Shown here piece by piece: positions 4,549 through 30,523 of a stretch of DNA of 64,000 nucleotides (position 1 is its first letter; every line of letters starts with the position of its first letter). Location of the stretch: positions 72,604,008 to 72,668,007 of the forward strand of contig OZ024869.1 of assembly GCA_964017185.1 (NCBI GenBank), written 5' to 3'. Origin of the DNA: Rugalucina vietnamica (taxonomy: Eukaryota > Mollusca > Bivalvia > Lucinida > Lucinidae). The position numbers were made by a program, and so were the translations under genes. The notes below the pieces were generated by a model. That model was given only the letters and a program-made list of their open reading frames with translations, did no database searches and had not been told where the DNA came from.

Positions 4549-6692
4549 GCTTTTTAGCTCACCCTGAGCCGAAGGCTCACAGGTGAGCTTATAGGATAGG
4601 CAGGCATCCGTCGTTCGTCGTCGTCCGTCGTCCGTCCACAATTTCAAAGAAGAATATTTCTGAAGCTAGTAGGCCGATCTTGATCAAATTTAATGTGAAC
4701 CATAATTGGGTTGGGGGATTGATGGCATTAGGTTTTGGAGCAGATTGTATCAAAATTGTGGTTTCGATGGCAACAGATAGGACTTACAATGGGAAAAACT
4801 AAAAAAATCTTTTCTCTGAAACCACTAGGCCCACAGCTTTGATATTTGGTATGTAGCAATGGCTAATGTTCCTCTACATAAATTGTGCCATTCATGCCCC
4901 TGGGGTCAAATTTGGCCACGCCCCGGGGGTCGATAGTCTCCATAGACTTTCTATGGGAAAAAAAATCAAACATCTTTTTCTCTGAAACCACAGGGCCCAC
5001 AGCTTTGATATTTTGTATGTGGCAATGGCTAATGGTCCTCTACATACATTGTGCCAGCCATGCCCCTGGGGTCAAATTTGGCCACGACCCGTGGGTCGAT
5101 AGTCTCCATAGACTTACAATGGGAAAAACTAAAAAAATCTTCTTTTCTGAAACCACTAGGCCCACAGCTTTGATATTTGGTATGTAGCAATGGCTAATGG
5201 TCCTCTACATAAATTGTGCCATTCATGCCCCTGGGGTCAAATTTGGCCACGCCCCGGGGGTCGATAGTCTCCATAGACTTACTATGGGAAAAATAAAAAA
5301 TCTTCTTCTCTGAAACCACAGGGCCCACAGTTTTGATATTTGGTATGTGGCAATGGCTAATGGTCCTCTACATAAATTATGCCAGCCATGCTCCTGGAGT
5401 CAAATTTGGCTACGCCCCGTGGGTCGATAGTCTCCATAAACTTACAATTGGAAAAACTAAAAAAATCTTCTTCTCTGAAACCACTAGGCCCACAGCTTTG
5501 ATATTTGGTATGTAGCAATGACTAATGGTCCTCTACATAAATTGTGCCATTCATGCCCCTGGGGTCCAATTTGGCCACGCCCCTGGGGTTGATAATCTCC
5601 ATAGACTTACTATGGGAAAAAACTAAAAAAATCTTCTTCTCTGAAACCACTAGGCCCACAGCTTTGATATTTGGTATGTAGCAATGACTAATGGTCCTCT
5701 ACATAAATTATGCCAGTCATGCCCCTGGGGTCAAATTTGGCCACGCCCCGGGGGTCGATAGTCTCTATAGACCTACAATAGGAAAAAAACTAAAAAAATC
5801 TTCTTCTCTGAAACCACTAGGCCAACAGCTTTGATATTTGGTATGTAGCAATGGCTGATGGTCCTCTACATAAATTGTGCCATTCATGCCCCTGGGGTCA
5901 TATTTGGCCACGCCTTTGGGTTGATAGTCTCCATAGACTTACTATGGGAAAAAATTCAAAAATCTTCTTCTCTGAAACCACAGGGCCCACAGCTTTGATA
6001 TTTTGTATGTGGCAATGGCTAATGGTCCTCTACATAAATTGTGCCAATCATGTCCCCGGGGTCAAATTTGGCAACGCCCCGGGGGTCGATAGTCTCCATA
6101 GACCTACAATAGGAAAAACTAAAAAAATCTTCTTCTCTGAAACCACTAGGCCCACAGCTTTGATATTTGGTATGTAGCAATGGCTAATGGTCCTCTACAT
6201 AAATTGTGCCATTCATGCCCCTGGGTCAAATTTGGCCAGGCCCCAGAGGTTGATAGTCTCAATAGACTTGCTATGGGAAAAAAATTCAAAAATCTTCTTC
6301 TCTAAAACCACAGGGCACACAGCTTTGATATTTTGTATGTGGCAATGGCTAATGGTCCTCTACATAAATTATGCCAGCCATGCCCCTAGGGTCAAATTTG
6401 GCCACGCCCTGGGGGTAGATAGTCAACATAGACTTACAATGGGAAAAACTAAAAAAATCTTCTTCTCTGAAACCAAAAGGCCCAGAGCTTCTATATTTTG
6501 TATGTAGCAATGTTTGGTAGTCCCCATTATAAATTGTGCCAGTCATGCCCCTGTGTCAAATTTGGCCATGCCCCGGGGGTCAATAGTGTCCATGCATAGA
6601 CTTTCATTGGTCGATTCTCAATTAATTTAAATCTCATGAGCTTACAATGTGATAATCTCTCAGGTGAGCTACAGGACCAATGGTCCTCTAGT
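4549..6692. repeat. Dispersed repeat R2 with GAGCTCACC / GGTGAGCT borders
   Basis: It begins with AGCTCACCCTGAGCC-GAA-GGCTCACAGGTGAGCT and CGTCGTCCGTCC, and ends with CTCAGGTGAGCTACAGGACC. It belongs to the same family as 1795-2786 and 47770-49094 but has a different, tandemly amplified interior (see 4770-6600). Short frames in it are repeat artefacts. Confidence 0.65.
4770..6600 (+). repeat. 165-bp tandem repeat, about 11 units
   Basis: The landmark CCCACAGCTTTGATATTT recurs at about 4831, 4997, 5162, 5325, 5490, 5656, 5822, 5987, 6152, 6317 and 6482, spacing 163-166 bp. Each unit has CTTCTCTGAAACCAC, ATGGCTAATGGTCCTCTACA and GGGGTCAAATTTGGCCACGC. Two sub-types, CACTAGGCCC and CACAGGGCCC, alternate over part of the array, pointing to a 330-bp dimer that was amplified. 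Confidence 0.85.
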
Positions 6693-10498: not shown

Positions 10499-11347
10499 TG
10501 TTATGTAGCCGTGTATTTACGTGTTCGTATAGTGTTTTATTTCTTTTATTTTAGTACTTCGCTGTTGTGTGTTCGAATAACAAATAATGTCTTTTAGAAT
10601 TTTCTAAGTTTTAATTTTTACAACCCAAAAAGGTTCGCTATATCAAAGTTCCGAAACTAAACCCAAAACTAAATCAAAACCCAAACTTAAATTCAAACTT
10701 AAAAACTGATGTGAATGGTCAGTTCCGCAGAATTTATATGCTTCAGTAATTGCGCATCCTCACGACTGCATTATTCATTTCCTAAAATTAACTGTTAAAT
10801 GCAAACTACCTGTCATATTTGATATATGCACCAAAACACATTCCTTCTAGAAGCTTCCATCTACGTGTGAGAATGCATCATGACATTCTAGAACTGCTGA
10901 CTACCAAACACGTGGTCTTGTAACCCCAAACAAGTACCCGAGTTTGATAGACATGCTATGAAAACACCCATCAGATATGACAGATTCTGCAACAATATTT
11001 ATTAAATATTTAAACAATTATGCAGTTAACAAAAACATAAACAAGTTGATATTTAAAATTATTTAACATTCCATTTTTAATTTGAATTGGTTCCAAATAA
11101 ACAATAACAATCATATGATGCTTAGTTAGAGTACATTTCTGCATTTTACAATTCTGCATTTTACAATACTTTATAGCTACTAGATTTTACTGTTATGAAA
11201 TGAGCTATTACTGTCTCTTTCTAACTGCAAGTTTCAAACTGTAAAGTACATTTATAAACCCTAAACAATATTTCAATAGCATAAGTTTTACATACATTAA
11301 ACATAAGTTAAGTCATACTGAGCAGTCGTGAGTGCAACTATGTTATA
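10499..11347 (-). repeat. 3' LTR of the retroelement
   Basis: About 849 bp, matching 29697-30523. In the element's sense it begins TATAACATAG and ends CATAACA, not the common TG...CA. Relative to the other LTR it has a 16-bp duplication (TTCTGCATTTTACAA) and a 7-bp insertion. A purine tract (AAAGGAGGTG in sense) sits directly upstream at about 11348-11357 and is the expected polypurine primer. Confidence 0.9.
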
Positions 11348-11357
11348 CACCTCCTTT

Positions 11358-11747
11358 ACCAAGAAATTTATTTATCTTAAATCAATTTCAATCACATACT
11401 CCGGACTGATCACTACATGCAAGCATTTAACATACATGTAAACATACATTAATAACAAAACAACATTAACAATTGTCAACACAATTAAAGTAATCAAACC
11501 ATAATGCACATAAATAACCAGGATTAAATCATATTCAAAATAAATGATCAGGATTATAAATTAAATTAAAATTATGTATTATAATTAACATGCATTAACT
11601 TAAAATCTTTATACATCATTTTGTGTGACCAACATTTATGCCTGACTAGAATTTGTAATTCCTTTTTCTTTACTAGAATAATACGAAAAATTGTTTACGG
11701 AATTAAATACACATTTAAAAGTCACATTTAATTGTTTTAATGTCCAT
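11358..11747 (-). other. AT-rich non-coding 3' part of the retroelement
   Basis: No open frame of note between the polypurine tract and the accessory frame. Rich in AACATTAA and ACATACAT runs. Confidence 0.5.
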
Positions 11748-12011
11748 TTAAAGTTTATCTTTCGATTGTCGTTGGACTGGCGTTTGTCCGATTGTCGCTG
11801 TACCAAAGTCAAACTTTAAGTCGATCACCATTGGAGCTTTCGGTATTGGCATCACAGGTGCTCGGTACATAACGTTTGGTCGAAAGTGAGTAACCACTGA
11901 AGATTCATCATAGTTTCTATTCATCACCATATAAGTTGGATATGGCGTTGAGATTCTATCACTGGTTAAATATGATTGTTGAATTACTGCAACATCGTCA
12001 TTCTGGAACAA
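11748..12011 (-). CDS. Accessory ORF downstream of env (unrecognised)
   Basis: An 87-codon frame between the env tail and the 3' LTR. In the element's sense a good splice acceptor (TTTTGTTCCAG) ends just after the ATG, so a spliced exon starting AATGACGATG is also possible. The product is acidic then Pro/Met-rich (PTYMVMNR, MPIPKAPMV, FDFGTATIGQ); no signal peptide, membrane span or known motif is seen. It is open over its whole length, unlike gag, pol and env. It could be the last coding exon of env or pol, or a separate small protein. Confidence 0.4.
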   Translation of the reverse strand: MFQNDDVAVIQQSYLTSDRISTPYPTYMVMNRNYDESSVVTHFRPNVMYRAPVMPIPKAPMVIDLKFDFGTATIGQTPVQRQSKDKL

Positions 12012-12039
12012 AAGTTAATTTCGTTTATTAAAATCTTCA

Positions 12040-12197
12040 CCTTGTCATAGCCTTCAGGGCTATACCAAGGACTTAATAATTAATATCTTCACCTGAGCAT
12101 GACCTTCAGGGTCATACCCAGGACTTTACTAAAATAATAAAGTCATTAACACGTTGGTAAATCTTCGTCTATGCATGTCCTTTAGGGGCATACATAG
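12040..12197 (-). other. Three related stem-loops in the retroelement 3' region
   Basis: Hairpins at 12040-12070, 12092-12122 and 12169-12197. In the element's sense each has a 12-13 bp stem and a five-base loop, CTGAA, CTGAA and CTAAA. The middle one pairs perfectly if G-T pairs count; the others have one mismatch each. Several stem positions differ between copies but keep pairing (for example GA/TC against AG/CT next to the loop). Each is followed by a GAAGAT-like tail. They lie between the env tail and the accessory frame, so they would sit in the 3' part of the genomic and env RNAs. The function is unknown; an RNA export, packaging or translation element is possible. Confidence 0.7.
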
Positions 12198-12226
12198 CAC
12201 CAATAAATACACCAATAAATACACAG
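12198..12226 (-). repeat. Leader-like GCACCAATAAATACAC duplication
   Basis: GCACCAATAAATACAC and a tandem partial copy stand next to the third hairpin. The same string is found at 29680-29694, between the primer-binding site and the 5' LTR. A leader fragment seems to have been copied into the 3' region. Confidence 0.5.
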
Positions 12227-12381
12227 TAAACATAGTGTCAAATAAGAACTTGTAATGAAGTTATTTACATATGGGTTGTCATATCTTTACATGTGCACAG
12301 TTCAATATTCAAAATACATTCTCATGATACACTGTTCATGATACACCATATGGCTTTTTATATACATAGCATATCAGGGCA

Positions 12382-14330
12382 CTACTTTGCCTTTGCCCAT
12401 GCTAATGTAGCATCTGTCCGCTTGAAGGAGGTTTGGCGTCCTTCCATATATTTCAGAATGGCGGACATCTCGATGTCTTCACCGTCAGAAGGTGAATGCT
12501 TATCATTTACCCTCTCAAAGTCATGATCATTAGTCAAGTGCTTACCAATTATTAAATTCAATCTATTACATTTAAACTTATGCAATATGAACCAAACTAT
12601 TATAACTGTACATAAAATTAATGTAACAGTAGTGGCAATAACAAGAGTTCAGTTTGTGCTGCTTTCAGCACTATCGAAATCGACGGATTTATAAATTCCA
12701 GTTTCGCGAAGGAAATTTCGCATAGGAATCTCTTTCAAGTCAAGCAGATGAGATGGCAAACCCAATGACTTTAAGTCAGTTCTGGAATCATTCCAAATAG
12801 AGAAGTGTGATATGTTGTGTAACTTCAACAGAGCTTGGTAAGGATCTGACCTTTCGAAGTGACTGTGCTTGCCAAACCATGCTGGCAGCTGTAAATATTT
12901 GTTTGAAGCTTTGCAGGTGTTGTTTAGTTTGATAATACCAAATGGAGGCATTATTTTAATGTCGTTAGCCATGGATTCGTGTGACTGGCAATTTATTGTA
13001 AATGTCAAAAGCTTGTTTGTGACAACAATCCAAATACCAAATGACAAATGTTTAGTTGTTGGCAGTTTCTGGTCCAAAACAACTATTTGTTTACATAAAG
13101 CTTTAATGTCATCCACATTTTGTCTAAACAATGCAATAACACAAAATTTGTTTACGTTTGTCTGATAGAATGCTGTCACTGGGTTACAGAACTGAAAATG
13201 ATAACTGTTACACATTTGAAAAGTACTTTCTGACAAAAGTGAAAATGGTTCTCTGTCTTTTGATACCATTAACAATTCAGTTTCAAGACTATACTTTACC
13301 AATATATCAGTCTGGTTAGGAACTACATGATGGACAGGTAATGGTAAATTATGTATTTTGTACACATCATATTCTTGTCTTGTGTTTATAAGTGGTTTCT
13401 TCAGGATAATTCTAATTTCATTATTTTCAAGGTAAGTTATATATGTTAAAGTTTTGTAAAAATACCAAATATCTTTTCTTGGATTTCTAGGTAGTTCAAA
13501 GTTATTTGGAAGTTTTGATTCAACTTCAATCAATAATTCTTTAAGATCTTTTGGAGAAATGGTGTTTGTTGACAAATGTTGCATGGACAACATGTTAAGT
13601 TCAAGATAAAACATAGCATCTTGAGTTATTAGTTTTATTTCATCCAAAATCATTTGAAACTGTAAGTATGTATGAACAAACTGTTCAAGTCGTACAAACT
13701 TTGCTGAAAAGGCTTGCTGAAGATTAACAACCTTCCTATCTAGTTTTTGTACCACTATAATTAAATACATAATTGACCTTCTATTTTCAGAGACCTGCAT
13801 TCTAGTCAAGTTCAACACTGATAAACTGATATCTAGATCATGTATTATCTGTTTCTGATTTCCAGCTAAAGCTTTGATATTTCTATTTATATTGTCAAGT
13901 TCATTTTCTGATACAGTGCCAAATAATTGACTAATTAATTGACCTACTATTGGGACTAGTGACCTCTATCGACATACATAGAGATTGACTGATATTCTGC
14001 AAAGTTATCATAGATGGAGTTGTAAGTTTCAGTCAATAAATCCACTTCAATATGCAAGCTTTTGAATGTTTCAACATACCCTGTCATATTCGAGCTTTCA
14101 TAGAAGTTGGTTATGGTTTTTACTATCTCATCTGTATGTAACAGATCATGTTTGATCTGATTGACCAGATTTTGAAATGGCCTTAGGTCATGGACAAATG
14201 TTACTGACCATTTTGCATCGTTTATGAAGACTTCATTAGTCTTTTGGAATACTACATTTTCAGATGTAAATATCCCACATGCCTGACTAATAGTCAATGA
14301 CCCTAAGATAAATGTAAACATGACATTTAT
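12382..14330 (-). pseudogene. env: Broken env-like gene (class I, F-type fusion glycoprotein)
   Basis: A splice acceptor (TTTGTTTCAG) ends at 14331, and an in-frame ATG opens a hydrophobic signal peptide (MFTFILGSL), which fits expression from a spliced env RNA. The N-terminal part runs to a stop at 13956. Another frame then carries a hydrophobic fusion-peptide-like stretch with an FGT motif, a heptad-like helix, and the 389-codon frame 12649-13818 with N-glycosylation sites and paired Cys. TGA at 12649-12651 comes just before a transmembrane segment of about 21 residues (LVIATTVTLI then IVWFIL), followed by a tail of about 65 residues ending at 12382. Overall this resembles errantivirus and baculovirus F proteins, which mediate membrane fusion. 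At least one frameshift or stop near 13960 and the TGA disable it. Confidence 0.75.
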
Positions 14331-14447: not shown

Positions 14448-16140
14448 TTACATCATATTAGAAATTAACCTCAATAACTGTTTTACGTCTCCCTTCTTTT
14501 GAGACCGAGGCTCCTGATGCCTCTCCTCCTCCACTGACTTCACTGATCTCATACGAGAAGAGCTAGGTTGCAAGTGAACTTCACTTACATTTATATCTCC
14601 TTCAGGATTATTTTGATCAACAAAAGGTAAGGAACAGAGGATAACTCGTCATTTCATTCCATGTCCTTCTCTTCTGTTTCTTTGTTTTGCCTTATTTCTC
14701 TATGCTTAATCTTTTTCTTAGTTCCATTAAGGGAATATCTTCTTCATCTGAGGATGTTTCTCTTTCATGCCTATACCGCTTAGCTAATTTGGCTAAAGGT
14801 ATGTTTTCATCTGACTCAGAATCGGCATCCGATTCTGACTCAGAAGGTTGGGGTGGTATCGTATAAGCTGCGTCCCTTAAACGTCTACCTTCATCATCTT
14901 TAATTATCTGCCATTCATCTACATGTGCTAATCTTATATCTCCTGCATATACTCTGCTCACTGAACCATCTACTTGATTTTTTATTCTATAAGAAACAGG
15001 ACCTGTCTTTTCAATAATTCTGTAGTATGGTCTCCATTTATTTTCTAATTTATTTTTTTCTATGATAATTTTTATAGAAGACAGGATCCCCTACTTCGTA
15101 GTTTACTTCTTTGGTTCCCTTATTTGCATACTTGGCCTGTCTCTTTTTAGCTTTCTTAAGATGATTTCTTACAGATACAAAATCTTTATGTTGTTCTTGC
15201 AAAGCAAACTGATGATAGTCTTCACCCATGTACTTCCTCCTAGGTTTCAAAATATTATCAATTGGTAGTACAACATCTCTGTTATACAAAAGAAAGAATA
15301 GTGAATATTTTGAAGACTCACTAACATTGATCCTAATTGCTGCCAAATCCTGATTAAGATTCAAATCCCAAGTCTGTGGATCATCAGCTACTTTCTTTGA
15401 CAACACATCATGTAGAGTTCTATGGTACCTTTCAACCTTAGCATTGCTTTGAGGATGATAAACACTTGTCAAAACATGATCAATATTCAACCTTTCCAAA
15501 GTTCCCATAACAACTCTGTTGACATTTTCCGTGCCATTTTCTGTGACCAATTGTAAACAAGAGCCAAAACGTGGAAAAATCTTATCAATGATCAAATCTG
15601 CAACTGTTTCACCTGTCTTGTCAGGTACAGCAAAAGCTTCTGGCCAACCACTATACCAGTCAACAAAGGCTATGATATACTTATTGCCTGACATAGTTGT
15701 GGGATAAGGGCCTGAAAGATCAAGACTAAGCTTTGCCATAGGATATGATGGAATATCAGTTTCTTGCAATGGTTGTCTGATTTTCTGTAAAGACCTAGTT
15801 TGACATAGCACACATTCATTGACATACTTATGTATTTCCTTAAATAGATTTGGCCAATAGTACTTTTGACGTATTGAATCAAATGTTTTCTGTACACCCA
15901 TGTGCCCATTCTGATCATGGTACTGTTTCACCACAAAGATTCTAAGATGCTTAGCTATGAACAATCTCAAATATGGATCATCATTTACATTTGAGAGATA
16001 GTACACTAAGTCATCTACCAACAGATAATGTTTCTGGACATCCTTACTTTCTTTACCATTAAGAATCATTGACCTAATTTCTGAAATGTCATCATCCCTA
16101 GTTTGTTCAATTTTCATATCAAAGCCAACTTTACTGAATA
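14448..16140 (-). pseudogene. pol: Integrase and C-terminal part of pol, frameshifted
   Basis: The 355-codon frame 15050-16117 contains the HHCC zinc-binding region (HxxNGHMG with a later ECVLC) and the catalytic core. The first Asp is in LSLDLSGP and the Glu in AKVERYH, but the second Asp position reads TENG where TDNG is usual. A frameshift in the T-run near 15050 moves the GPY/F-like region to another frame, which continues in 14692-14961 with a Ser/Asp/Glu-rich tail (SESESDADSESDENIP). A further shift leads to a basic tail ending at 14448. The integrase would insert element cDNA into host DNA. This copy is probably inactive because of the frameshifts, the active-site change and the loss of continuity with RT. 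Confidence 0.85.
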
Positions 16141-16480
16141 AAAATAATTGTTAGATCCTTTGGAAGCAGTAAAACATTCAAAGCGAGAAGATGGGCCATA
16201 TTGTACAATTTCGGGAAATGAACCTTCATCAGTGACCCTTTACAAAACAGGCAGTGAAAGCCAGACATGTTTGCTGCAATTTCAATAATTTACATCTTTG
16301 TAGTCTAAATCAAAGACTCATAATCCCAAAGGGGCCAAATAATCAAAATACAGTTAAGAAGATGATTCTTAACGAACAATATATTTGGAATACTCCAAAT
16401 ATATTCACTGATCCCAAAGGATCAAAAGAAAAATATAATCTGCACTATGGATGATGTACGGGGAGACTTTTTGAAGTCTG
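16141..16480 (-). repeat. Dispersed repeat R5 inserted in pol
   Basis: On the minus strand this reads AGTCTCCCCGTACATCATCC, then ATTATATTTT, GATCCTTTGGGATCAG, AAAGGGTCACTGATGAAGG and TATGGCCCATC. The same blocks in the same order occur at 37205-37415 and 53937-54410. It lies between the end of the RNase H part and the start of integrase, holds stops in all frames, and is best read as an older insertion that broke pol. Confidence 0.55.
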
Positions 16481-16512
16481 AACAATCACATTTTTCAAAT
16501 GAATCGTGAGTA

Positions 16513-16700
16513 CAGTACAGTCCAGGGGGATTTTCACCAGCCCGCCCACCCCCGCGGACGATTTCTCAGAGCCCCCCGCAATCCCGCTCACCTGTCCGCT
16601 TATAATCCCGCCGCGGAATATTTTAATCCCGCCGCGGATTGCGGCGGATCCGCGGAGGATCCTCCCGTTACCTGTATAATTCCACCGCGGGTTTGCGGAG
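16513..16700. repeat. Left inverted repeat and subterminal CCGCGG array
   Basis: After the 46-bp repeat come at least five copies of CCGCGG or CCGCCGCGG up to 16690 (for example near 16551, 16610, 16632, 16649 and 16685). Dense short palindromes near transposon ends often bind the transposase. The right end has a matching set. Confidence 0.7.
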
Positions 16701-16719
16701 GATTTCCAATGAAAAGTTA

Positions 16720-16727
16720 TGACGTCA
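16720..16727. promoter_or_regulatory. CRE-like site TGACGTCA
   Basis: A perfect palindromic cAMP-response-element core just inside the left end of the giant element. A single site could be chance. Confidence 0.25.
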
Positions 16728-16829
16728 TAATGATTGACAGGTACAGTTATGCTAAGACGAAAGGTAACACCAAGTGCACTTGTAGTGCTCTACATGTAGT
16801 GCTCTACATTTAGACTTCATCTAGACTTC

Positions 16830-17510
16830 AAAGTTCACTACCAGTGAACGACAAAGTGCACTATAGTGCACAAGGTAGTTAACATGTAGTGAACTAGACA
16901 ATACCTAGTCTTCTCAATGTTATTACCTGGACATTGAATGTTTATTAGCGGTAGACCGACGAAAAATATAATTAAAAGGGGAATTGTCTGTATATTCATT
17001 TGTTCATTCATCATAAATTTTTTCTCTCTCCTTTCTTTCTTGCTTTCAGTCATGCTGTCATTCAAATGAAGATACAAATTTGACAGTCAATAGCAAAATT
17101 GAAACATTCATTTATTCATTCGTTCATTCTTGCTTTCTTATTCATCCATTTGTTTGTTCTTTCTATGTACATTCAATGTTCAAATCAAAATATTTAGCAT
17201 CTTTGCCTCTCTTTTTCTTTAGTTATTGTTTCCGCAAAATATATGAAGTTGGGCTTTGATGTGAAAAATTTTGTTTTCCATTCTAATATACATGATTGCA
17301 AGTGAAGAAACTTTAATTGCTTGTCGTGTCCAATAATAACTCATTGCTGACCACACATTTGCCACCTGTTAATTTAACAGGTAATACTTATAAGGACATG
17401 CCAATTTATGGCTTCTCTGTCAATAAGCTATGTAATGCACTTAATATTTTAGCATCATTTAAATATTAATTTCTAGAATCAAAACCAGTTCGTTTAACAT
17501 TTCTCACCAT
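16830..17510. other. No gene seen
   Basis: AT-rich, with ATTCATTCGTTCATTC runs near 17105-17160. No supported exon. Confidence 0.4.
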
Positions 17511-17519
17511 GGAGCATAC

Positions 17520-17670
17520 TGTCAAAAGACTTAACGCACAAATTGTGGGTACACGCGAGAACCGTCTCGCCGAGGTGGTTCTAAAGAGTACAAACAATCT
17601 GTTTTGGAGAAAAAAAAATATGTAAACCCCTGTATACCCAAGTTTTGCTACAAAAGTGGGGTATACGGGC
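17520..17670. mobile_element. Palindromic MITE family M2, degenerate copy
   Basis: CAAATTGTGGGTACACGCGA with the facing GTACAAACAATCTGTTTTGG repeats the arm seen at 7522-7637, then CCCAAGTTTTGCTACAAAAG repeats its flank. Part of the arms is lost. Confidence 0.5.
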
Positions 17671-17830
17671 CAAACATTTAATGTTTATTTTTTCCTGGTG
17701 CAAGTATACATTTTCGACATAAACATGGTAATACAGACACAAGCCTTAAAAGATATAAAATTGCGTAAATTGGTTAAACAAAATGTTTGCAATGTCGGAA
17801 TTCGTCCCAAAATTTATGAAAAATTAAAAT

Positions 17831-18050
17831 TTGAGCCGCCACATCAGAAAACTAACAATCTGCATAAGCGAGAACAAAGGCGCAGATCAGCGCAGGTGTT
17901 CAGTGCCTTTTTGTTTTCGCTACATGGATAGTACAAAAATTCGACTATTCATGCTTCTAGCCTGTTTCTGTGACTGTACAGGTTGATTTTTGTCGGACCG
18001 GTTCGGACACTTATATTGTTTGTTGGTTTTCTCATGTGCAGGCTCATTTC
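17831..18050. mobile_element. MITE family M1 copy
   Basis: The left end is GAGCCGCCACATCAGAAAAC and the right end TTGGTTTTCTCATG followed by GGCTCAT. The centre has AACAAAGGCGCAGATCAGC and TTTTTGTTTTCGC. Confidence 0.65.
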
Positions 18051-18249
18051 TTTTCTATTCTATTCGTTTTATGCTTCAACTATTTCATCAACAATGTGAT
18101 TTACAGGGGATTAGCAACTTAATGTACCTGAGCAATAAAACTTATCAATGAATGGTGTCATTATAACAGGTAATACCCCTGCCTAAGGTGTCAAACGTGT
18201 GCCTCTAAACAATATTTTACTGGACATGACTTGGCAAAAGATCTACACC

Positions 18250-18466
18250 ACTAGGGTTTCTACACAAATGCAAACCGAGCTGTGCATACACAGACGATGA
18301 CTGGAGGCTGGAAATTTTAGATTTAGAAAATAGAGAAATTGTACTATCCGTGTAACGAAAACAAGGACGATGATCGGCTTCGCAGTTACTGCGAAGTTAA
18401 CTGATCTGCGCCTTTGGTTTCGCATATGCAGATTGTTTGTTTTCTCATGCTGCGGCTCATATTACT
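18250..18466. mobile_element. MITE family M1 copy, opposite orientation
   Basis: It contains GAGGCTGGAAATTTTAGATT, a central TTCGCAGTTACTGCGAA palindrome, GATCTGCGCCTTTGGTTTCG and the end TTTTCTCATGCTGCGGCTCA. The other end is eroded. Confidence 0.6.
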
Positions 18467-18807
18467 TTCTAAAATCTGAATACGGATTATGTGCTGTGAT
18501 TGTCCCAGCATAAGATGGCTGAAGAATTTGACTTCCAGAGTGGCGATATGCTGGGCCGCCAAATTGGATCAGACTGTGCGCCTAAATCATAGTTAATAAA
18601 TTAGTGTAGGGTAGAGGAGCAGAAAGAAAGAGAGAGAGAGAGACAGTGTAACCATATACTCTGTTGTCTAGCCGTCATGTTTCAGATTCAACGATGATAC
18701 ATATTTTTCACATATGCAAATAAAATGTGTCTTTGTATGTTTCCTTTTGATTGTAAATGGTGCTTTAAGAAGTGTTGTAAAATCTTTTTTTGATTTTCAT
18801 TTGCCTT

Positions 18808-19044
18808 CGAGCCACATCATCAGAAAACCAACAATGTGGTTTGAGAATAGATTCGACACAAACCGAGCTGTACAGTCACAGAAGCAGGCTAGAGACTGGA
18901 AATTTCGGATTTAGAAAGTAGAGGAATTGTACTTTCTGTTATGCGAAAACAAAGGGATTGTTCAGCTTTGCAGTAACTGCGAAGTTGATCTGCGCTTTTG
19001 TTTTTGCATATGAACAGTTTTGGTTTTCTCATGACACGGCTCAT
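18808..19044. mobile_element. MITE family M1 copy
   Basis: Both ends are present (GAGCCACATCATCAGAAAAC; GGTTTTCTCATGACACGGCTC). The core TTTGCAGTAACTGCGAAG and the AGTCACAGAAGCAGGCTAGA arm match the copies at 18250 and 24293. Confidence 0.65.
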
Positions 19045-19099
19045 ATCAGTAGCTTCAGATAACAATTAAAATCATCGGTTTATAAAAATAATATTTTTT

Positions 19100-19169
19100 C
19101 TAAAGACACCAGCTGCCGAAGGCAGCTTCGACCGGCCAGTCGTAGGCTGGCCGGTCGAGGTGTCTTTAG
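19100..19169. repeat. Contiguous three-way-junction sequence
   Basis: An outer 11-bp stem (CTAAAGACACC at 19100-19110 with GGTGTCTTTAG at 19159-19169) encloses two hairpins that abut with no unpaired bases. The first, 19111-19127, is AGCTGCC-GAA-GGCAGCT; the second, 19128-19158, has a 12-bp stem TCGACCGGCCAG / CTGGCCGGTCGA around TCGTAGG. As DNA or RNA this folds into a complete three-way junction. Nothing coding overlaps it. Confidence 0.75.
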
Positions 19170-19229
19170 TATGTAAACACATTGTCTTTCCGAAGTGTCT
19201 TCGGCTGTTTCCGCCACATGCCGAACAAA

Positions 19230-19273
19230 TACGAACGCCGTAGGCGTTCGTAAAAACACACCGAAGGTGTTTT
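19230..19273. repeat. Two further hairpins with C-GNA-G loops
   Basis: 19230-19252 pairs TACGAACGCC with GGCGTTCGTA around GTA; 19258-19270 pairs ACACC with GGTGT around GAA. The stems differ from the neighbours, but the CC-G(A/T)A-GG core is the same. Confidence 0.7.
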
Positions 19274-19865
19274 AAAAAATGATCAAATTAAATGAATTGC
19301 ATAAAAATATGTTTTTCAAAATATTTATGTATACATTTTCAATAAATGATTTTCTAAATAAAATACGGAATCGACCGAACTGGGTGGCCATATTGTTTTG
19401 GAATGGATCCATCATATTTTTTTTTCACCAGCTTATCGAATCTCACGTTATGCGAAACGCGGGTACCATAGCGTTTCCGGGTCTCCGTAGCAACGGCAAG
19501 GTTCTAAAATTATTGAAAATCTAACGCAATGCAGCAAATGATGAACGTTTCTCGCGATTTCAAGACCTATTTGGAGTCGCTCGCTGTTGGACAGTTGTAA
19601 TTACAGATGCCGGAGACTTTAAAGTGATAACTGACGTAGAAACAAGTTGTAAAATCAGGAATTTAACTTTTAACGTGAAACAAATTCAGGAGGAAGTCGT
19701 CATTCGAAAGTGAAAGTACAGGTGTAAGTTTTAACACAATAACACAAACAAGTTTTACTCTTCATTTAACACATTTTCTACATTCACTAGCTGCCACAGC
19801 CAGCACGACCAAAGTTTTGTGTTCCTATTTTTGTTGGCGTCACTGTCTATCAAAGTGTCTTAACT

Positions 19866-20032
19866 CAGGGGCGGATCCAGGATTTTGGAAGAGGGGGTTC
19901 AGATGTTGAAAAGGGGGGTTCGTTTGCCTAATTTCACACAAAATCTCTTGAAATTCCTCATGAAAATGAAATAATGTGGGTCCAGAGGGGGGTTCGAGCG
20001 AACCCCTTGAACCCCCTCTAAATCCGCCACTG
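19866..20032. mobile_element. Short MITE with CAGGGGCGG ends, 7-bp target duplication
   Basis: The left end CAGGGGCGGATCCAG and the right end CTAAATCCGCCACTG are an imperfect inverted pair. CTTAACT is duplicated at 19859-19865 and 20033-20039. It has interrupted a unit of the tandem repeat that follows, so it is younger than the array. The duplication length is near the 8 bp of hAT elements. Confidence 0.65.
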
Positions 20033-21075
20033 CTTAACTGCCGTAGGCAGTTTTCGGTTTCTGAGATGGATGGCATCACTGCCTATCAAAGTGTCTTAAC
20101 TGCCGTAGGCAGTTTTCGGTTCCTGAGATGGATGGCTTCACTGAGACAGTTGGCGTCACTGTCTATCAAAGTGTCTTAACTGCCATAGGCAGTTTTCGGT
20201 TTCTGAGATGGATGGCATCACTCTATCAAAGTGTCTTAACTGAGTTTTCGGTTCCTGAGATGGGTGGCTTCACTGAGACAGTTGGCGTCAATGTCTATCA
20301 AAGTGTCTTAACTGCCGTAGGCAGTTTTCGGTTTCTGAGATGGCTGGCTCTCTATCAAAGTGTCTTAACTGCCGTAGGCAGTTTTCTGTTCCTGAGATGG
20401 GTGGCTTCACTGAGACAGTTGGCGTCACTGCCTATCAAAGTGTCTTAACTGCCGTAGGCAGTTTTCTGTTCCTGAGATGGATGGCATCACTGCCTATCAA
20501 AGTGTCTTGACTGCCGTAGGCAGTTTTCGGTTCCTTAGATGGGTGGCTTCACTGAGACAGTTGGCGTCACTGTCTATCAAAGTGTCTTAACTGCCATAGG
20601 CAGTTTTCGGTTTCTGAGATGGTTGGCCTCACTGTCTATCAAAGTGTTTTAACTGCCGTAAGGCAGTTTTCGGTTGCTGAGACGGTTGGCATCAATGTCT
20701 ATCAAAGTTTCTTTTAAAACTGCCGGTAGGCAGATTTCCGTTCTAAGTTTCAAAGTCAGATCCGTTCAAATTCAGATCAAAGTTTCTTAACTGCCTGTAG
20801 GCAGTTTTCGGTTTCTGAGACAGATGGCCTCACTGCCTCTGAGAGGGTTGGCGTCAGTCTTATCAGTTTTCTGTTCCCAAGAGGAATGGCCTCACTGTCT
20901 TTCATAGTGTCTTTACTACCGGTAGGCAGTTTTGGGTTCATGAGACTCATGGCTAACTAGACGGCAGTTTTCAGTTCCTGAGATGGATGTCCTCACTGTC
21001 TGTTAAAGTGTCTTTCGGTTGCTGAGACTGATGGCCTCACTGCCTATCAAAGTGTGTTAACTGCCAGAAGTCAGT
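20030..21075 (+). repeat. Irregular tandem repeat with AACTGCCGTAGGCAGTT hairpin
   Basis: Units of about 60-80 bp contain TATCAAAGTGTCTTAACTGC, the hairpin AACTGCC-GTA-GGCAGTT, TTTTCGGTTCCTGAGATGG and a variable GAGACAGTTGGCGTCACTG spacer. There are at least 12 copies, the last ones degenerate. Apparent open frames here come from the repeat. Confidence 0.8.
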
Positions 21076-21524
21076 TCTGTTTTGTTTTAACCAGTTTATC
21101 GATTCTCAAAAACTGAGTACCAGAGCGCTTCCGTGTCTCTTTAGCGACAACAAAGTTCTTAAATTCTAAAGAAGCCTGACATGCGGCAGCACAAACCCAC
21201 AAATCCATATATATATAAAGCTTTTTGCAAAGCTTTCTGTATTGAGCAGCTCGGAACCTTTTAATTTATGCATTGAAGTCCGGATATTAGTCAAACAGGA
21301 AGTGACTTAGCCTGACAGAAATACCAATGAAAGATATTCGGAAAGTGAAAGTAGAAATGTCAATGAATAATTGTGCAGAGGCTCAAACCAAAGTAAAATG
21401 CTTAACAGACTAGACAATACACAACCCAAAAGACTGTAAGTCAGTGAATCTCAAGTTTTATCAAGCAGGCAGCTCGACCAGCCAGCAGCTCCAGCCTGTG
21501 GCTGGTCTGTGTCTTAAATACTGT

Positions 21525-22200
21525 CCATACACCATCCTCCAAAAACTATGTTTTGTGTCTTTTGAAAATTTCTAAACTTTTTAAACACTAGTGATTTTTT
21601 TTCGCTATAAAACAGACTCCGGTTTTAGGAGTCGTTCCCAATGGCAAAAATTATTTTTTTTTCCCAAATGCATGGTTAAAAATTCCCAATCTGAGAAAGT
21701 TTCCCAATCAGGCTTACAACTGCAACCATAATTTAATTAAACATGTACTATTATAAGCACCAATTAATCTGATATTTGTGACATGGAATAATGCTAATTT
21801 TCATGTGTCACAGTCATATGATGTTTACTTTTAGAAAACAAATCATGGTAACACTTATCATGATATTTTTACTGGTCTTAAGATTTTCTTAATTCATGGT
21901 AAAATTAGGCAGTTTTTCCCAATTGAACCGGTACTGGTACCGTTCCCAAAATGCTGAAAAAAATCACTGGTTCACCTTTCTCCAGAAACTATGTTTTGTG
22001 TCTTTTCTAAATACCACAGGCTGGTGGGTCCCCAGGGGTGGGTCCCTGTCTTTACTGTCCATACACCATCCTCCAGTGTTTTGTGTCTTTTCTAAATACA
22101 CCAGCTGCTGCAGGCAGCTCAGCCAGCCTGTGTCTATACTGTCCATACACCATCTTCCAGAAACTATGTTTTATGTCTTTTCTAAATACCCATCTGCTAG
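21525..22200 (+). repeat. Dispersed and tandem CTGTCCATACACCATC repeat
   Basis: ATACACCATC(C/T)TCCAG followed by TTTGTGTCTTTTCTAAATAC occurs about four times (near 21530, 21980, 22050 and 22140), three of them spaced about 85 bp. Short hairpins with CAGCTGCTGCAGGCAGCT stand between units. Confidence 0.6.
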
Positions 22201-22810
22201 ACCGCAATACCAGGGCTCCACCCTATTCAATGTCTACCATACAGAGGAATCACCCATTGATTTTCTTTTTTTTTAATTAGTGGACCGATTTTCTTTTCCT
22301 TTTTTTTGCGGCTCTTTTCAACACTTTTGGGTTACAAATTGAAAAGGATGTTATAGTGATATTTTTCTTGAGGTGTTTCAGAAAAAACACGGTTTCTGAA
22401 AGATTGTGTATGGGCAGCAGTTTGTTTTCCCATTCTCTCTCCGAAGTATCTTTGTTTGTTTTTTTTTCTGCCACATGCAGAACAAATACATAGAAAAGAC
22501 ACATACTAAGGAAGATGTCACATGTATGCATTCTGACATGAGCTTTGCTGTTGACTTGGACATTAAGCAACATTATAACATACAAAGAAAACCCGGTTAG
22601 ACAAAACCACAGGCACTGGGTAGATGCCTGAAGTATAGGATTGAGTACAGTAAGCAGTGGAAATGTACTATCTTTTTGTTTAAACAAGACTTCATTGATT
22701 GTGTAGCTGTGTTTATCCTGCTGCTGCAGCTTATCTAAGTCTCGACTTTAGCATGCATGAAATGTTTTCTCATGATATGGCTCTTATTAAAAAGGTTTCC
22801 TGTCTTTATT
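22200..22810. other. No gene seen
   Basis: T-rich and A-rich runs; overlapping short frames on both strands without splice support. Confidence 0.35.
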
Positions 22811-22814
22811 TCAG

Positions 22815-22912
22815 TAAATTAATATTATGGCCAATGGTTGGGAAGGATGGTTGAAAGATGCAAAGCTGACAGCTAGCTCATCAGTTTTGTGATTCATTGA
22901 GCAGTATTTTAG
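22815..22912 (+). ncRNA. Putative exon of a spliced transcript inside the giant element
   Basis: A strong acceptor (TTTATTTCAG at 22805-22814) and donor (TTTTAG then GTATGTATG at 22913) bound 98 bases. It contains an ATG frame of about 21 codons starting MANGWEGWLKDAK that stops before the donor. It may be an untranslated exon or a broken captured coding exon. A weak likeness to profilin N-termini is not enough to name it. Confidence 0.25.
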
Positions 22913-23609
22913 GTATGTATGTAACTTTTGTATACTTCTAAATATTTTTATAGCAGTTTAATAAAGAAACTTAAATCATTTTTTAAGTTTGTAAAATAAC
23001 ACATTTGAAAAACATACTGTCACCCTCAGGCTGTGAGAATTTGATAAATAGATGGGCTGCTAGAGTGTTGACCAGCCATTACACTTACATTTTCCAAACC
23101 AAGAACCACACATGCACATTGACAGAAACCAAAATTTGGAGTTCCAAATCAGACACTTTCTTTGGTATTTATAATACATGTACCATTTTTTATCTACATT
23201 GGGAATAAACTGCAAAACTTCATGATTTTAAGCTTTGAAACTCAGTAGCAAGGGTTTGATTTGGATAAATGTAGAAGTGTGATGTACCACTGATCATAGC
23301 TCTATGAAGTTACTGTGTTGTTGAAATGTATTGATACAGTGTTTTCTGCATCTGCAAAATACACACTTTTATCATCACAGTGGCTGCTTACACGAGCTTT
23401 GTCTTCGAGGTTTGCGACAAAGAACAATTTAAACCAGGCTGCATATATATGAAATAATAAAACTTATGAAGATTATGTTAAAAAAAAGTTGTGAAATTGA
23501 TGTAGTCTGCATGAAGTGATGAAGATTGTGTTTGAAGATTGATTTATACATATAAAAATGTGCCTTCATCTCAAACACTTTCTTATGCATGATTTCTATT
23601 GTCTTTCAG

Positions 23610-23880
23610 CATAACCATGCTCAGAGGCAGGGGATGTAATCATCCATGACTCACTCCACAAACCAGAAAGCTTAAAGACGGATTATTGGTCTCTGATGAT
23701 AAATCATGAAAAACTTTATCAACTGTATAAATGAAGAAGGACACCATAACAAGCACAGCTCAACCAAGTTTAAATTTTTCTGCTTCATAAATATTGGACT
23801 AGCCAAAGTCTGTGGGACTTTCAATTTCAGATGTAAATTACCAAAGCCAGCCAGTTGTCCTAGCTGATAAATGTAATAAA
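23610..23880 (+). ncRNA. Putative last exon of the same transcript
   Basis: The acceptor TTGTCTTTCAG ends at 23609; AATAAA is at 23875-23880. No long frame. Pairing it with the exon at 22815-22912 is an inference. Confidence 0.2.
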
Positions 23881-24184
23881 CAGTACTGTTGATAAATTAA
23901 TGCTGATATTTTTATGCTCAGTTGAATTAAGAATGAAAATGGTTTTATAATGTAACCACAAAGCAAAGATCTTCTCTAGACACAGTCAGTGATTGTGAAA
24001 ACAGAAATTAATAAAAGAACAGAGCGCAATATTGTCTGTTTCATGTGAAAACATCACAGCTACACCCTACATGTACACATTTAGTATTGATGTGCATGCT
24101 TATGTTTTACACCAGGGCTTACAACCAAATAGATGCGCACAACAGGCTTTATAAAAATCACAAAGGATATGCATGGAATTTGGT

Positions 24185-24290
24185 ATTTTACGGTACAGCA
24201 ATGACCTGGTGGTAGAGTAGCCAATTCCAGAGCTAGAGGTTCTGGGTTCCATACATTTGCAGCGCAGTGTCCTTGAGCTCTAAAAATATT
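24185..24290 (+). mobile_element. tRNA-derived SINE fragment
   Basis: GACCTGGTGGTAGAGTAGCC resembles an A box and GAGGTTCTGGGTTCC a B box, followed by GTGTCCTTGAGC, a SINE body motif also seen near 49180. No tRNA stems form. Confidence 0.5.
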
Positions 24291-24292
24291 TG

Positions 24293-24531
24293 AGCCCTGG
24301 CATGAGAAAACCGGTCTTTGGAGTTTCCGACAAGGTATGGCACAAACCTGTACTGTCACAGAAGCAGGCTAGAAGCTTGAAATTTCGGATTTAGGAAGAA
24401 GAGAAATTGTACTATCTGTGTAGCGAAAACAAAGGCTCTGATCAGCTTCTCAGTTACTGTGAAGCTGATCTGCGCCTTTGTTTTCATATATATAGGCAAA
24501 AATCTGGTTTTCTCACGATGCGGCTCATTTG
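24293..24531. mobile_element. MITE family M1 copy
   Basis: Both ends are present (TGAGCCCTGGCATGAGAAAAC; TGGTTTTCTCACGATGCGGC). The inside holds GTCACAGAAGCAGGCTAGAA and a GATCAGCTTCTCAGTTACTG palindrome. Confidence 0.65.
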
Positions 24532-24817
24532 TTATATACTCAGAAATGGCTGGTCCTAACACCACATGACAGAAAATAATGATAATCTGCCATACAAAAC
24601 TAAACCAACAAAATGTTTTAAGAATAATTGTTCTGTTTATATCTTGAGGGGGTGCTATAGCTTGGATGATAGTGTCCGATTCATAATGAAATGGGCCTGA
24701 CAATCATTCCCACAGACAGCACATTTCTTTCATGAAGATCAGGTTAGAAAATAAACAAACTAAAAAGCTATGTTCTGTCTACATAATAAAAAAATAAGAT
24801 CACTTTAAAAAGGAAAC

Positions 24818-25000
24818 ATGGTGGCCTAGTGGTAGAGCATCGGGCTCTGAATCAAGAGGTCCTAGGTTAGATCCACACTTGATGTGCCATGTTTATGTCA
24901 TTGAGCAACACATTAAATCTCAAGAGTACTGGTAAATATCCAGGGAGACGGGGCTTTGCCCTGACATGATTGAAACATTGTTGACTAGGACTTTCTGCAC
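24818..25000 (+). mobile_element. tRNA-derived SINE
   Basis: GGTGGCCTAGTGGTAGAGCA (A box) and GGTCCTAGGTTAGATCC (B box) at tRNA spacing are followed by TCATTGAGCAACACATTAAA and a body of about 120 bp. The acceptor stem is absent, so this is a SINE head and not a tRNA gene. Confidence 0.6.
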
Positions 25001-25007
25001 CCATAAT

Positions 25008-25075
25008 AGCTCACCTGAGCCGTTAGGCTCACAGGGTGAGCTTTAAGTATAGCAATGATCGGGCGTCCTTGAGGA
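25008..25075. repeat. Isolated end of the R1/R2 repeat family
   Basis: AGCTCACCTGAGCC-GTTA-GGCTCACAGGGTGAGCT is the bordering hairpin of the R2 repeat, but only the first 60 bases of the element follow. Confidence 0.6.
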
Positions 25076-25186
25076 CAATCCTGCATATAGCCAACTCCAT
25101 GTGTACTTACACCTTCATATCAGTGATGAGCATACCAAATCTGATTGCTCATGCTTTAAACACTGAAATTGTTCTTATACACAAGT

Positions 25187-25640
25187 CATTTGTATCCACT
25201 GCCCCTCTGGGGCCAGGGAATAGCAAGGCATTTAATTTTTCAGTTTTTGAAGCCCAGCTAAAAGCCCGGCATTGAGGGGTCAGATTTGTGGTAAAATCCC
25301 TGCTAAAAATCCCCGCTCCCCAAAGGCTGCCAAAAATGTGGAACAACAGCTGGTAGTTGTTCTATTGAAAAAGAATATGAGAGAGGAGTTTGAATTTCTG
25401 CATGTAAATGTACAGGGTCATTCACTTTACATTAAATAAGGACCATAGAAGTAATAAAATGTTGAAATACAACTATTATCTAATTTGAATTAATGTTCAC
25501 GACTGTATTGGCGGGAAATTTTAAAACCCTGGCTTATCCTTGGCACGGCCGGGACTTATTAGAGGTTAAAACCCAGCACTTTAGCCCTGCTGTGGCCCCG
25601 CTATCCCCGGCCCTAGGGGAGCCGGGTATACAAATGACTG
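25187..25640. mobile_element. MITE family M3, copy 2
   Basis: It starts CATTTGTATCCACTGCCCC, ends GGGTATACAAATG, and aligns in reverse with 7857-8267. One copy lies inside and one outside the giant element, so this family was active apart from it. Confidence 0.65.
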
Positions 25641-25790
25641 GTGCATTAGGACTGGTGTTTCTGATACCCGTTGTTGGTTTTTGCCTAAACTCTGGAAGAA
25701 ACAGAGTATTTAAACTCCCGCAGCTTTGCTGCTTTTTCTTGTTTTTATTGTATACCAGTATGAAGTATACTTTGTGTAAGAAAATGTTTC

Positions 25791-25793
<3 letters not shown>

Positions 25794-25823
<30 letters not shown>
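25794..25823 (+). repeat. Poly(A) run
   Basis: About 30 consecutive A. It could be the tail of a retroposed sequence; no matching upstream unit was identified. Confidence 0.7.
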
Positions 25824-25826
<3 letters not shown>

Positions 25827-25979
25827 CAGAATCTGGGATTTACATGACAGAAATGCATTTACACTTTATGATCGTAAAACATGTATTTTTAATTAAGATA
25901 CATGAAACAAAAATAATAATCGAATTAGATTTAAACTCGGGTCTAAGTACAAGTATGCATTACAATAAATTGGAAACAA

Positions 25980-26220
25980 GCCCCGCCCACTTTCCTTATC
26001 CATCCTCATTCCACCGCGGGTCCGCGGTGGAAAGTTAGAGACAAAAAATACAGGTAAGCGCGGACGATAAAATTTCTACTTCTTTACCCCGCCGCGGAAA
26101 CTCCGCAATCCCGCCGACTAGGGCGTTTCCGCGGTGGATATTAAAGTTTTAATCCTTTTTCTTACAGCCCCCTCTCCGCGGGGGTGGGCGGGCTGGTGAA
26201 AATCCCCCTGGACTGTACTG
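25980..26220. repeat. Right subterminal CCGCGG array and inverted repeat
   Basis: CCACCGCGG, GTCCGCGGTGG, CCCGCCGCGG and TTTCCGCGGTGG occur between 26010 and 26135, and the perfect 46-bp inverted repeat ends at 26220. Confidence 0.7.
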
Positions 26221-26222
26221 TA

Positions 26223-29473: not shown

Positions 29474-29667
29474 TTTCTTTAATTTTTAATTCTAATTTAA
29501 TTAAATTTTGCTGTAAATTTAATTGGTAAAGCACAAAACTAATAGCACAACAAAGAAAAGGCAAAAGTAAACATCACCTACCTTCAGTTTCTGCATCTGT
29601 TCCATTTTTTTATTCCTGTGCACAACTTTCAAATTTTTGGTACTAAGGAAGATTTTCTTTTGATATA

Positions 29668-29684
29668 GCCTGCGAGCGGCACCA
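29668..29684 (-). promoter_or_regulatory. Primer-binding site
   Basis: Twelve bases inside the 5' LTR the sense strand reads TGGTGCCGCTCGCAGG. The TGG start pairs with the CCA end of a tRNA, as expected for minus-strand priming. Which tRNA I cannot say. Confidence 0.6.
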
Positions 29685-29696
29685 ATAAATACACGC

Positions 29697-30523
29697 TGTT
29701 ATGTAGCCGTGTATTTACGTGTTCGTATAGTGTTTTATTTCTTTTATTTTAGTACTTCGCTGTTGTGTGTTCGAATAACAAATACAGTCTTTTAGAATCT
29801 TCTAAGTTTTAATTTTTACAACCAAAAAAGGTTCGCTATATCAAAGTTCCGAAACTAAACCCAAAACTAAATCAAAACCCAAACTTAAACTCAAACTTAA
29901 AAACTGATGTGAATGGTCAGTCCCGCAGAATTTATATGCTTCAGTAATTGCGCATCCTCACGACTGCATTATTCATTTCCTAAAATTAACTGCTAAATGC
30001 AAACTACCTGTCATATTTGATATATGCACCAAAAACACATTCCTTCTAGACGCTTCCATCTACGTGTGAGAATGCATCATGACATTCTAGAACTGCCAAA
30101 CACGTGGTCTTGTAACCCCAAACAAAAACCCGAGTTTGATAGACATGCTATGAAAACACCCATCAGATATGACAGATTCTGCAACAATATTTATTAAATA
30201 TTTAAACAATTATGCAGTTAACAAAATATAAACAAGTTGATATTTAAAATTATTTAACATTCCATTTTTGATTTGAATTGGTTCCAAATAAACAATAACA
30301 ATCATATGATGCTTAGTTAGAGTACATTTCTGCATTTTACAATACTTTATAGCTACTAGATTTTACTGTTATGAAATGAACTATTACTGTCTCTTTCTAA
30401 CTGCAAGTTTCAAACTGTAAAGTACATTTATGAACCCTAAACAATATTTCAATGGTATAAGTTTTACATACATTAAACATAAGTTAAGTCATACTGAGCA
30501 GTCGTGAGTGCAACTATGTTATA
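29697..30523 (-). repeat. 5' LTR of the retroelement
   Basis: About 827 bp and about 98% identical to 10499-11347 by eye. It would hold the promoter. Sense-strand ends are TATAACATAG and CATAACA. Confidence 0.9.

Follow-up and report, generated by a model that had tools for sequence, protein, structure and literature searches.

The stretch of DNA analysed here (64,000 nucleotides, hereafter the window) carries on its minus strand an LTR retroelement with both LTRs, which are 95.3% identical. Its parts, in order along that strand, are the following.

29697..30523, minus strand: 5′ LTR, from the LTR comparison
29582..29605, minus strand: putative leader mini-exon of eight codons (the ATG included), ending at a donor-like AAG/GTAGGT (29582/29581)
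28560-27034, minus strand: protease and reverse transcriptase
16117-15050, minus strand: integrase
12649..13818, minus strand: open part of the env frame, which a stop in the window copy cuts ahead of the membrane helix
12382..12648, minus strand: remainder of the env frame up to its stop, with (by eye) the membrane helix and the tail
12384-12382, minus strand: env stop codon
12158..12202, minus strand: hairpin unit H3, a CTAAA loop on a stem of 13 positions (11 paired), between a TGGT flank and a CGAAGAT tail
12082..12126, minus strand: hairpin unit H2, a CTGAA loop on a 13 bp stem, between an AAGT flank and a TGAAGAT tail
12030..12074, minus strand: hairpin unit H1, a CTGAA loop on a stem paired at 12 of 13 positions, between an AAGT flank and a TGAAGAT tail
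12003..12014, minus strand: CTTTTGTTCCAG, a putative splice acceptor
11748..12002, minus strand: accessory exon frame, 84 codons and a stop, homologous in families A and B (defined below)
10499..11347, minus strand: 3′ LTR

Among the solved structures listed, the reverse transcriptase is nearest to Ty3 (two chains at 164 and 163 bits), followed by an "Enzymatic polyprotein" (8r0s, 138 bits), with HIV and the other chains listed at 65 bits or less. It is a Ty3-like reverse transcriptase, as expected of errantivirus-like Metaviridae. The env frame of the window copy is interrupted just before its membrane helix, and open-frame homologues exist elsewhere in the genome. These env relatives differ from errantiviruses in having no Pfam family match above the cut-off (the weak rows are chance-like), and no relative of env was found among solved structures up to E 1; the structure model of env (pLDDT 45.8) is too weak for a structure search. 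The env relatives show an RxKR site ahead of a conserved hydrophobic stretch, possibly as in an F-type envelope. Between the reverse transcriptase and the integrase (16117-27034) lie about 10 kb with tandem repeats (20033-21098), and the provirus seems to hold a nested insertion there. Outside the element, at 4790-6575, there is a tandem array with a period near 165 bases.

The three hairpins sit between the env stop and the acceptor-like CTTTTGTTCCAG (12014-12003). On the minus strand, their stem-loops span 12198-12168 (H3), 12122-12092 (H2), and 12070-12040 (H1), with standard pairs at 11, 13, and 12 of the 13 stem positions, respectively. The defects are a G-A at the end position and one C-A mismatch in H3, and one G-A mismatch in H1. 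In a preliminary description of this stretch, three stem-loops in a row had been placed between the env tail and the accessory frame, each with a five-base CTGAA/CTAAA loop and a GAAGAT-like tail; all of this holds, with CTAAA in H3, CTGAA in H2 and H1, and GAAGAT one base past each of the three stems. The two strands of the window together contain 364 CTRAA sites, and H1, H2, and H3 are the only ones with at least 11 of 13 positions paired. Dinucleotide shuffles of 11400-12700 (2000 in number) produced 12 such sites in total and never more than one per shuffle, against three in the real stretch. The sense RNA 12220-12020 folds with -66.9 kcal/mol (z -6.72, with 0 of 200 shuffles as good), and the opposite strand folds with z -4.95 (again 0 of 200).

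A comparison of 11400-12700 with Rfam gave four matches with an E of at most 5; none comes near its gathering score, and the only one overlapping a hairpin is RgsA on H1 (E 3.8, other strand). No description of such hairpins was found among the titles and abstract starts listed in searches of the open-licence PMC literature.

All carriers of the units come from one genome. The hairpin interval as query returned ten matches at nine genome places, the window's own among them, and env as query returned at least 110 matches (106 of 219 candidates scored). Env relatives are also represented by 207 database proteins. Inspection of the sequence downstream of env in the fetched loci led to four carrier families.

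Family A (the window type): env 76-100% identical, one decayed piece 61%; two or three units
Family B: env 59% in L016; two units
Family C (L020-L025): env 43%; two units
Family D (L071): env 47%; two units

Relatives whose env is as little as 43% identical still have hairpin units of this form in the corresponding position after env. In L008 and L014, a second and weaker unit falls below the ten-pair screen. That screen, over 206,072 bases, gave 72 sites on the sense strand versus five on the other, overlapping loci being counted repeatedly. L018 is a B copy in which, from about 2995, another reverse-transcriptase element (likeness judged by eye) starts some 15 bases past the env stop; the hairpins of this copy are found on the far side of that element, in L089. 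L009/L010 hold two copies of the H2-type unit at a distance of 185 bases, which shows that duplication of units occurs.

No unit was seen in 14 more distant env loci (L027-L040), nor in L076 and L078-L088, where for some of L076-L088 the fetched stretch may miss part of the interval. L077 has one 10-pair site without flanks, which we take as chance. One env family without hairpins has a post-env accessory frame with, by eye, a RING-like cysteine spacing (L027:3174-3695). In an env tree of 17 stop-free stretches, chosen from 30 fetched (L011-L040) with broken, partial, and near-identical rows and family D left out, a branch with support 99/97 separates the ten carriers from all other rows; they form a clade only if the root falls on the other side of that branch. 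The hairpins first noted in the window are thus kept in the near families A, B, C, and D of the same genome and absent from the more distant env families, which places the hairpin element on one env branch. In a viral contig collection, where records near this genome are possibly absent, both the unit pattern and env gave 0 hits.

Across the genome, a pattern with the flank, the loop, and parts of the stem fixed gave 107 hits versus 15 for the reversed control. Among the 100 matches listed, 80 are exact and 11, six, and three have one, two, and three mismatches. Of the 97 listed with at most two mismatches, 96 are at places that also match the window interval, env, or the 3′ stretch of L020, the exception being C11:15679841 (F_1). 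A looser pattern, with 11 stem pairs free, gave 108 hits versus 60 for its reversed form; among the 100 listed, those beyond the known places are never within 100 bases of another on one strand, unlike the tandem units. Among the matches listed, tandem units are seen only in this element group.

The CTRAA loop is universal in the units by design of the search. In the 28 distinct units of the fetched loci, a count that excludes the chance site of L077, GAAGA follows within ten bases in 23 and GAAGA(T/C) in 22, five having no GAAGA in the tail, and AAGT precedes 20. Over 15 units, the flanks pair no better than expected by chance (mean z 0.34) and form no common outer helix; a good one is seen in B_1 only (z -2.07). 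In seven family A loci compared with the window, the units are more alike than their surroundings (0.94 versus 0.82 in L004, 0.80 versus 0.73 in L009), in alignments with cheap gaps that are left uncounted (18 gapped unit positions in L006, 38 in L007). Protein-read 3′ UTR signals such as the histone stem-loop are hairpins flanked by conserved single-stranded bases. The units have this form, without sign of an outer helix, and might accordingly be a 3′ UTR element through which a host hairpin-binding protein would act on the translation, stability, or localisation of the env or gag-pol mRNA. We consider this improbable: no Rfam family is reached at the gathering score, and the units are kept after loss of the env body (see below), which speaks against a role for env only.

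The preliminary description had taken the pairing kept under differing stem bases as a sign of selection on structure. This was examined on 19 unit sequences, 17 from the fetched loci and two from the listed pattern matches, by re-dealing the 3′ arms among the units (a test that ignores the kinship of the units, and is not R-scape). In ten representatives, the units' own arms pair at 123 of 130 positions, versus a mean of 92.4 (sd 5.3) for re-dealt arms, and 0 of 20000 deals were as good. When only the six pairs that the search pattern does not fix are counted, the result is 55 of 60 versus 30.3 (0 of 20000 deals). A stricter set of seven less related units gives 87 of 91 versus 63.0 (2 of 20000 deals) and, at the free pairs, 40 of 42 versus 20.1 (3 of 20000). 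The excess of compensatory change is there, and the proposed selection on structure is supported: at nine of the 13 stem positions, standard pair types occur with both partners changed, whereas the loop and flanks stay. Pairs 1 and 2 never switch to another standard pair, and pairs 7 and 9 change on one side only. Between A_H2 and D_2, nine pairs differ (seven on both sides, two on one) and none is broken. Broken pairs number two in D_1, one in F_1, and one to three in the H3 types; D_1 and the H3 types pair at 10-12 of 13.

Over the 19 units, there are 33 G-U pairs versus four A-C mismatches and, without the near-fixed U.G at pair 7 (present in 18 of 19 units), 15 versus four. This excess of G-U indicates that the sense RNA is the strand that folds; the same counts disfavour a DNA palindrome or an antisense RNA. 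A coding repeat was also rejected, since no frame of at least 50 codons runs over the units in L011, L016, or L071, although a 76-codon frame does cover them in family C. That the hairpins are a functionless by-product of tandem duplication, with pairing inherited from one ancestral hairpin, is very hard to credit. Units do duplicate, as L009 with its two H2-type copies illustrates, but the double changes keep the pairing to a degree that the re-dealt arms do not approach, and the loop, the wobble, and the flanks are largely fixed from A to D while the spacers drift.

A further group of copies, C′, matches L020:1-1016 (the end of pol and the first env codons) and then L020 from 2703 or 2707 on (membrane helix and tail). 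The gap between the matched parts holds bases unlike L020; 21 copies have 447-495 such bases, and one copy has 184 (in the copy at C4:53400949-53401425, for example, such bases take the place of the env body). In this subfamily, which has multiplied, either a deletion or an exchange of the ectodomain may account for the change in env. The break at 1016 is common to 22 C′ copies, and such common breakpoints suggest one event. Both units are present within two mismatches in 22 of 22. The units common to C′ differ from those of C at one of 70 bases, an A-U becoming G.U with the pair kept, and single copies have further changes. With the C′ segment 88-91% alike overall in the 22 copies, the binomial P for the units is 0.0055 at a change rate of 10% and 0.011 at 9%, and this low rate of change makes hitch-hiking of the units less likely. 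The hairpins outlived the env body in C′ and therefore need not serve Env.

Such persistence in all 22 multiplied copies without an env body is also what one would expect of a replication signal. The hairpins could then act in genome packaging or RNA trafficking, with Gag (nucleocapsid) binding them to choose the full-length RNA, and in Ty3 the localisation and packaging of RNA depend on UTR or POL sequences (excerpts of PMC4974528). The env mRNA would carry the units too, however, and the genome and the env mRNA would not be told apart by the units alone. Packaging signals of retroviruses, moreover, are mostly 5′. Packaging by Gag is one of our two main rivals to the reading favoured below, unlikely on balance but to be taken seriously; the other concerns splicing.

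The putative leader exon and its donor-like site span 29605-29576 and precede the gag-side frames. Both in the window and in L016, the accessory frame starts right past the putative acceptor, in a phase matching that of the leader exon. At the acceptor place, TTGTTCCAG is found in five of the seven family A copies and both family B copies examined, and is absent in L006 and L008. Possible splice donors at the stem ends (AG/GTGAAG in A and B) were rejected, family C having GGCAGAAGAT there. In a BLASTP comparison of five accessory frames, the A and B exons are homologous (E 6e-12), and C and D have a different accessory frame in common (E 1e-10), for which no relationship with the A/B exon was detected. 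The five frames are not basic (5-12 K+R in 78-125 residues, pI 4.4-8.5), and no family is common to all carriers. An accessory protein as binding partner of the units was rejected, the A/B and C/D frames not being detectably related.

The last stem ends 37 bases ahead of the accessory exon in the window copy and 77 bases ahead of it in L016. The GAAGA tails resemble SR-protein sites. Both observations are consistent with control of splicing only, in which the units would restrain the accessory acceptor and so set the share of accessory mRNA. In C and D, however, the accessory frame is found about 270-480 bases downstream, so that the distance from unit to acceptor is not fixed, and it has no detectable kinship with that of A and B; yet the units are alike in form. 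Splice control alone, our second main rival, appears rather unlikely.

Fly errantiviruses of the ZAM/Beagle type have, ahead of gag, a short exon that codes for a peptide and from which the env exon is spliced (excerpts of PMC12992720); the putative leader mini-exon may be compared with it. If the leader donor were used as in the flies, the hairpins would be intronic with respect to the accessory mRNA and retained in the gag-pol and env RNAs.

We lean, tentatively, towards reading the units as a tandem protein-binding cis element that would mark intron-containing RNA for export or against splicing. The hairpin units would act in cis, as RNA, within a Ty3/gypsy-like retroelement that bears env. 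Being placed after env and upstream of the accessory acceptor, they would be absent from the accessory mRNA only, that is, present in the full-length gag-pol RNA and in the env mRNA, and spliced out of the accessory mRNA. The repetition of the units, their fixed loop, the near-fixed wobble, and the single-stranded flanks lead us to infer a protein that reads loop, wobble, and flanks of each unit, the remaining stem serving as a spacer; the repeats may give cooperative binding. An export mark for intron-containing RNA, or a shield holding it back from splicing, would fit the place of the units. Against this count the splice sites, predicted from sequence, the lack of TTGTTCCAG in L006 and L008, the variable distance between unit and acceptor, the rarity of the NXF1 motif AAGACA (two of 28 units) together with the missing outer helix, the five units without GAAGA, and the broken pairs of some units. 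In favour of the export reading, some retroviral cis elements that act for unspliced RNA are likewise repeated and placed close to the 3′ end.

The CTE of MPMV sits between env and the 3′ LTR. The hairpins match this place, with the env stop at 12384-12382, the stem-loops at 12198-12040, and the 3′ LTR at 11347-10499. CTE, DR, and RRE are retroviral answers to the handling of intron-containing RNA (PMC7551171). The CTE is a long stem-loop with internal loops in twofold symmetry that hold AAGACA (PMC7551171, PMC4330393), the motif bound there by NXF1 (PMC4174252, PMC4330393). Like the CTE of MPMV/SRV and the gammaretroviral γ-CTE, the units are structured cis RNA; in the former, the structure serves intron-containing RNA. 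The units here differ in being separate hairpins with CURAA loops and without a closing outer helix, and AAGACA occurs in two of the 28 distinct units. A CTE of MPMV type was therefore rejected, no closed AAGACA internal loop being found (two of 28 units; flank pairing at mean z 0.34).

The DR elements that flank src in RSV are repeated cis elements like the units; they bind NXF1 and DDX5 and serve the export of unspliced RNA (excerpts of PMC7551171). In the units here, by comparison, structure is kept more than sequence. The RRE, which works with Rev, is a structured RNA with several stem-loops and several binders, located in intron-containing RNA, and the tandem units may be likened to this arrangement (PMC7551171). 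A Rev-like arginine-rich partner was not found among the five accessory frames, which are not basic and differ between A/B and C/D. The words "stem-loop" and "export" are absent from the main text of the ZAM/Beagle errantivirus paper (PMC12992720).

A broader proposal is held with more reserve. The tandem hairpin element (AAGU, a 13 bp stem with a central U.G, a CURAA loop, and a GAAGA tail) may possibly be a new class, by which a clade of animal env-bearing Metaviridae would export or shield intron-containing RNA without a viral adaptor; it would then be an independently evolved counterpart of CTE and RRE, read by a host protein or by Gag. To our knowledge, the nuclear exit of unspliced RNA in env-bearing gypsy-type elements has been little studied. 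A compact covarying motif, together with natural descendants without the env body, makes the question of nuclear export testable, and the units are also a structural marker for one branch of env-bearing retroelements.

One further observation concerns the primer-binding area beside the 5′ LTR. The 16 bases GTGTATTTATTGGTGC (29679-29694, minus strand) recur exactly at the 5′ edge of H3 (12197-12212). In Ty3, parts of the PBS sit at both ends of the RNA (excerpts of PMC4974528).
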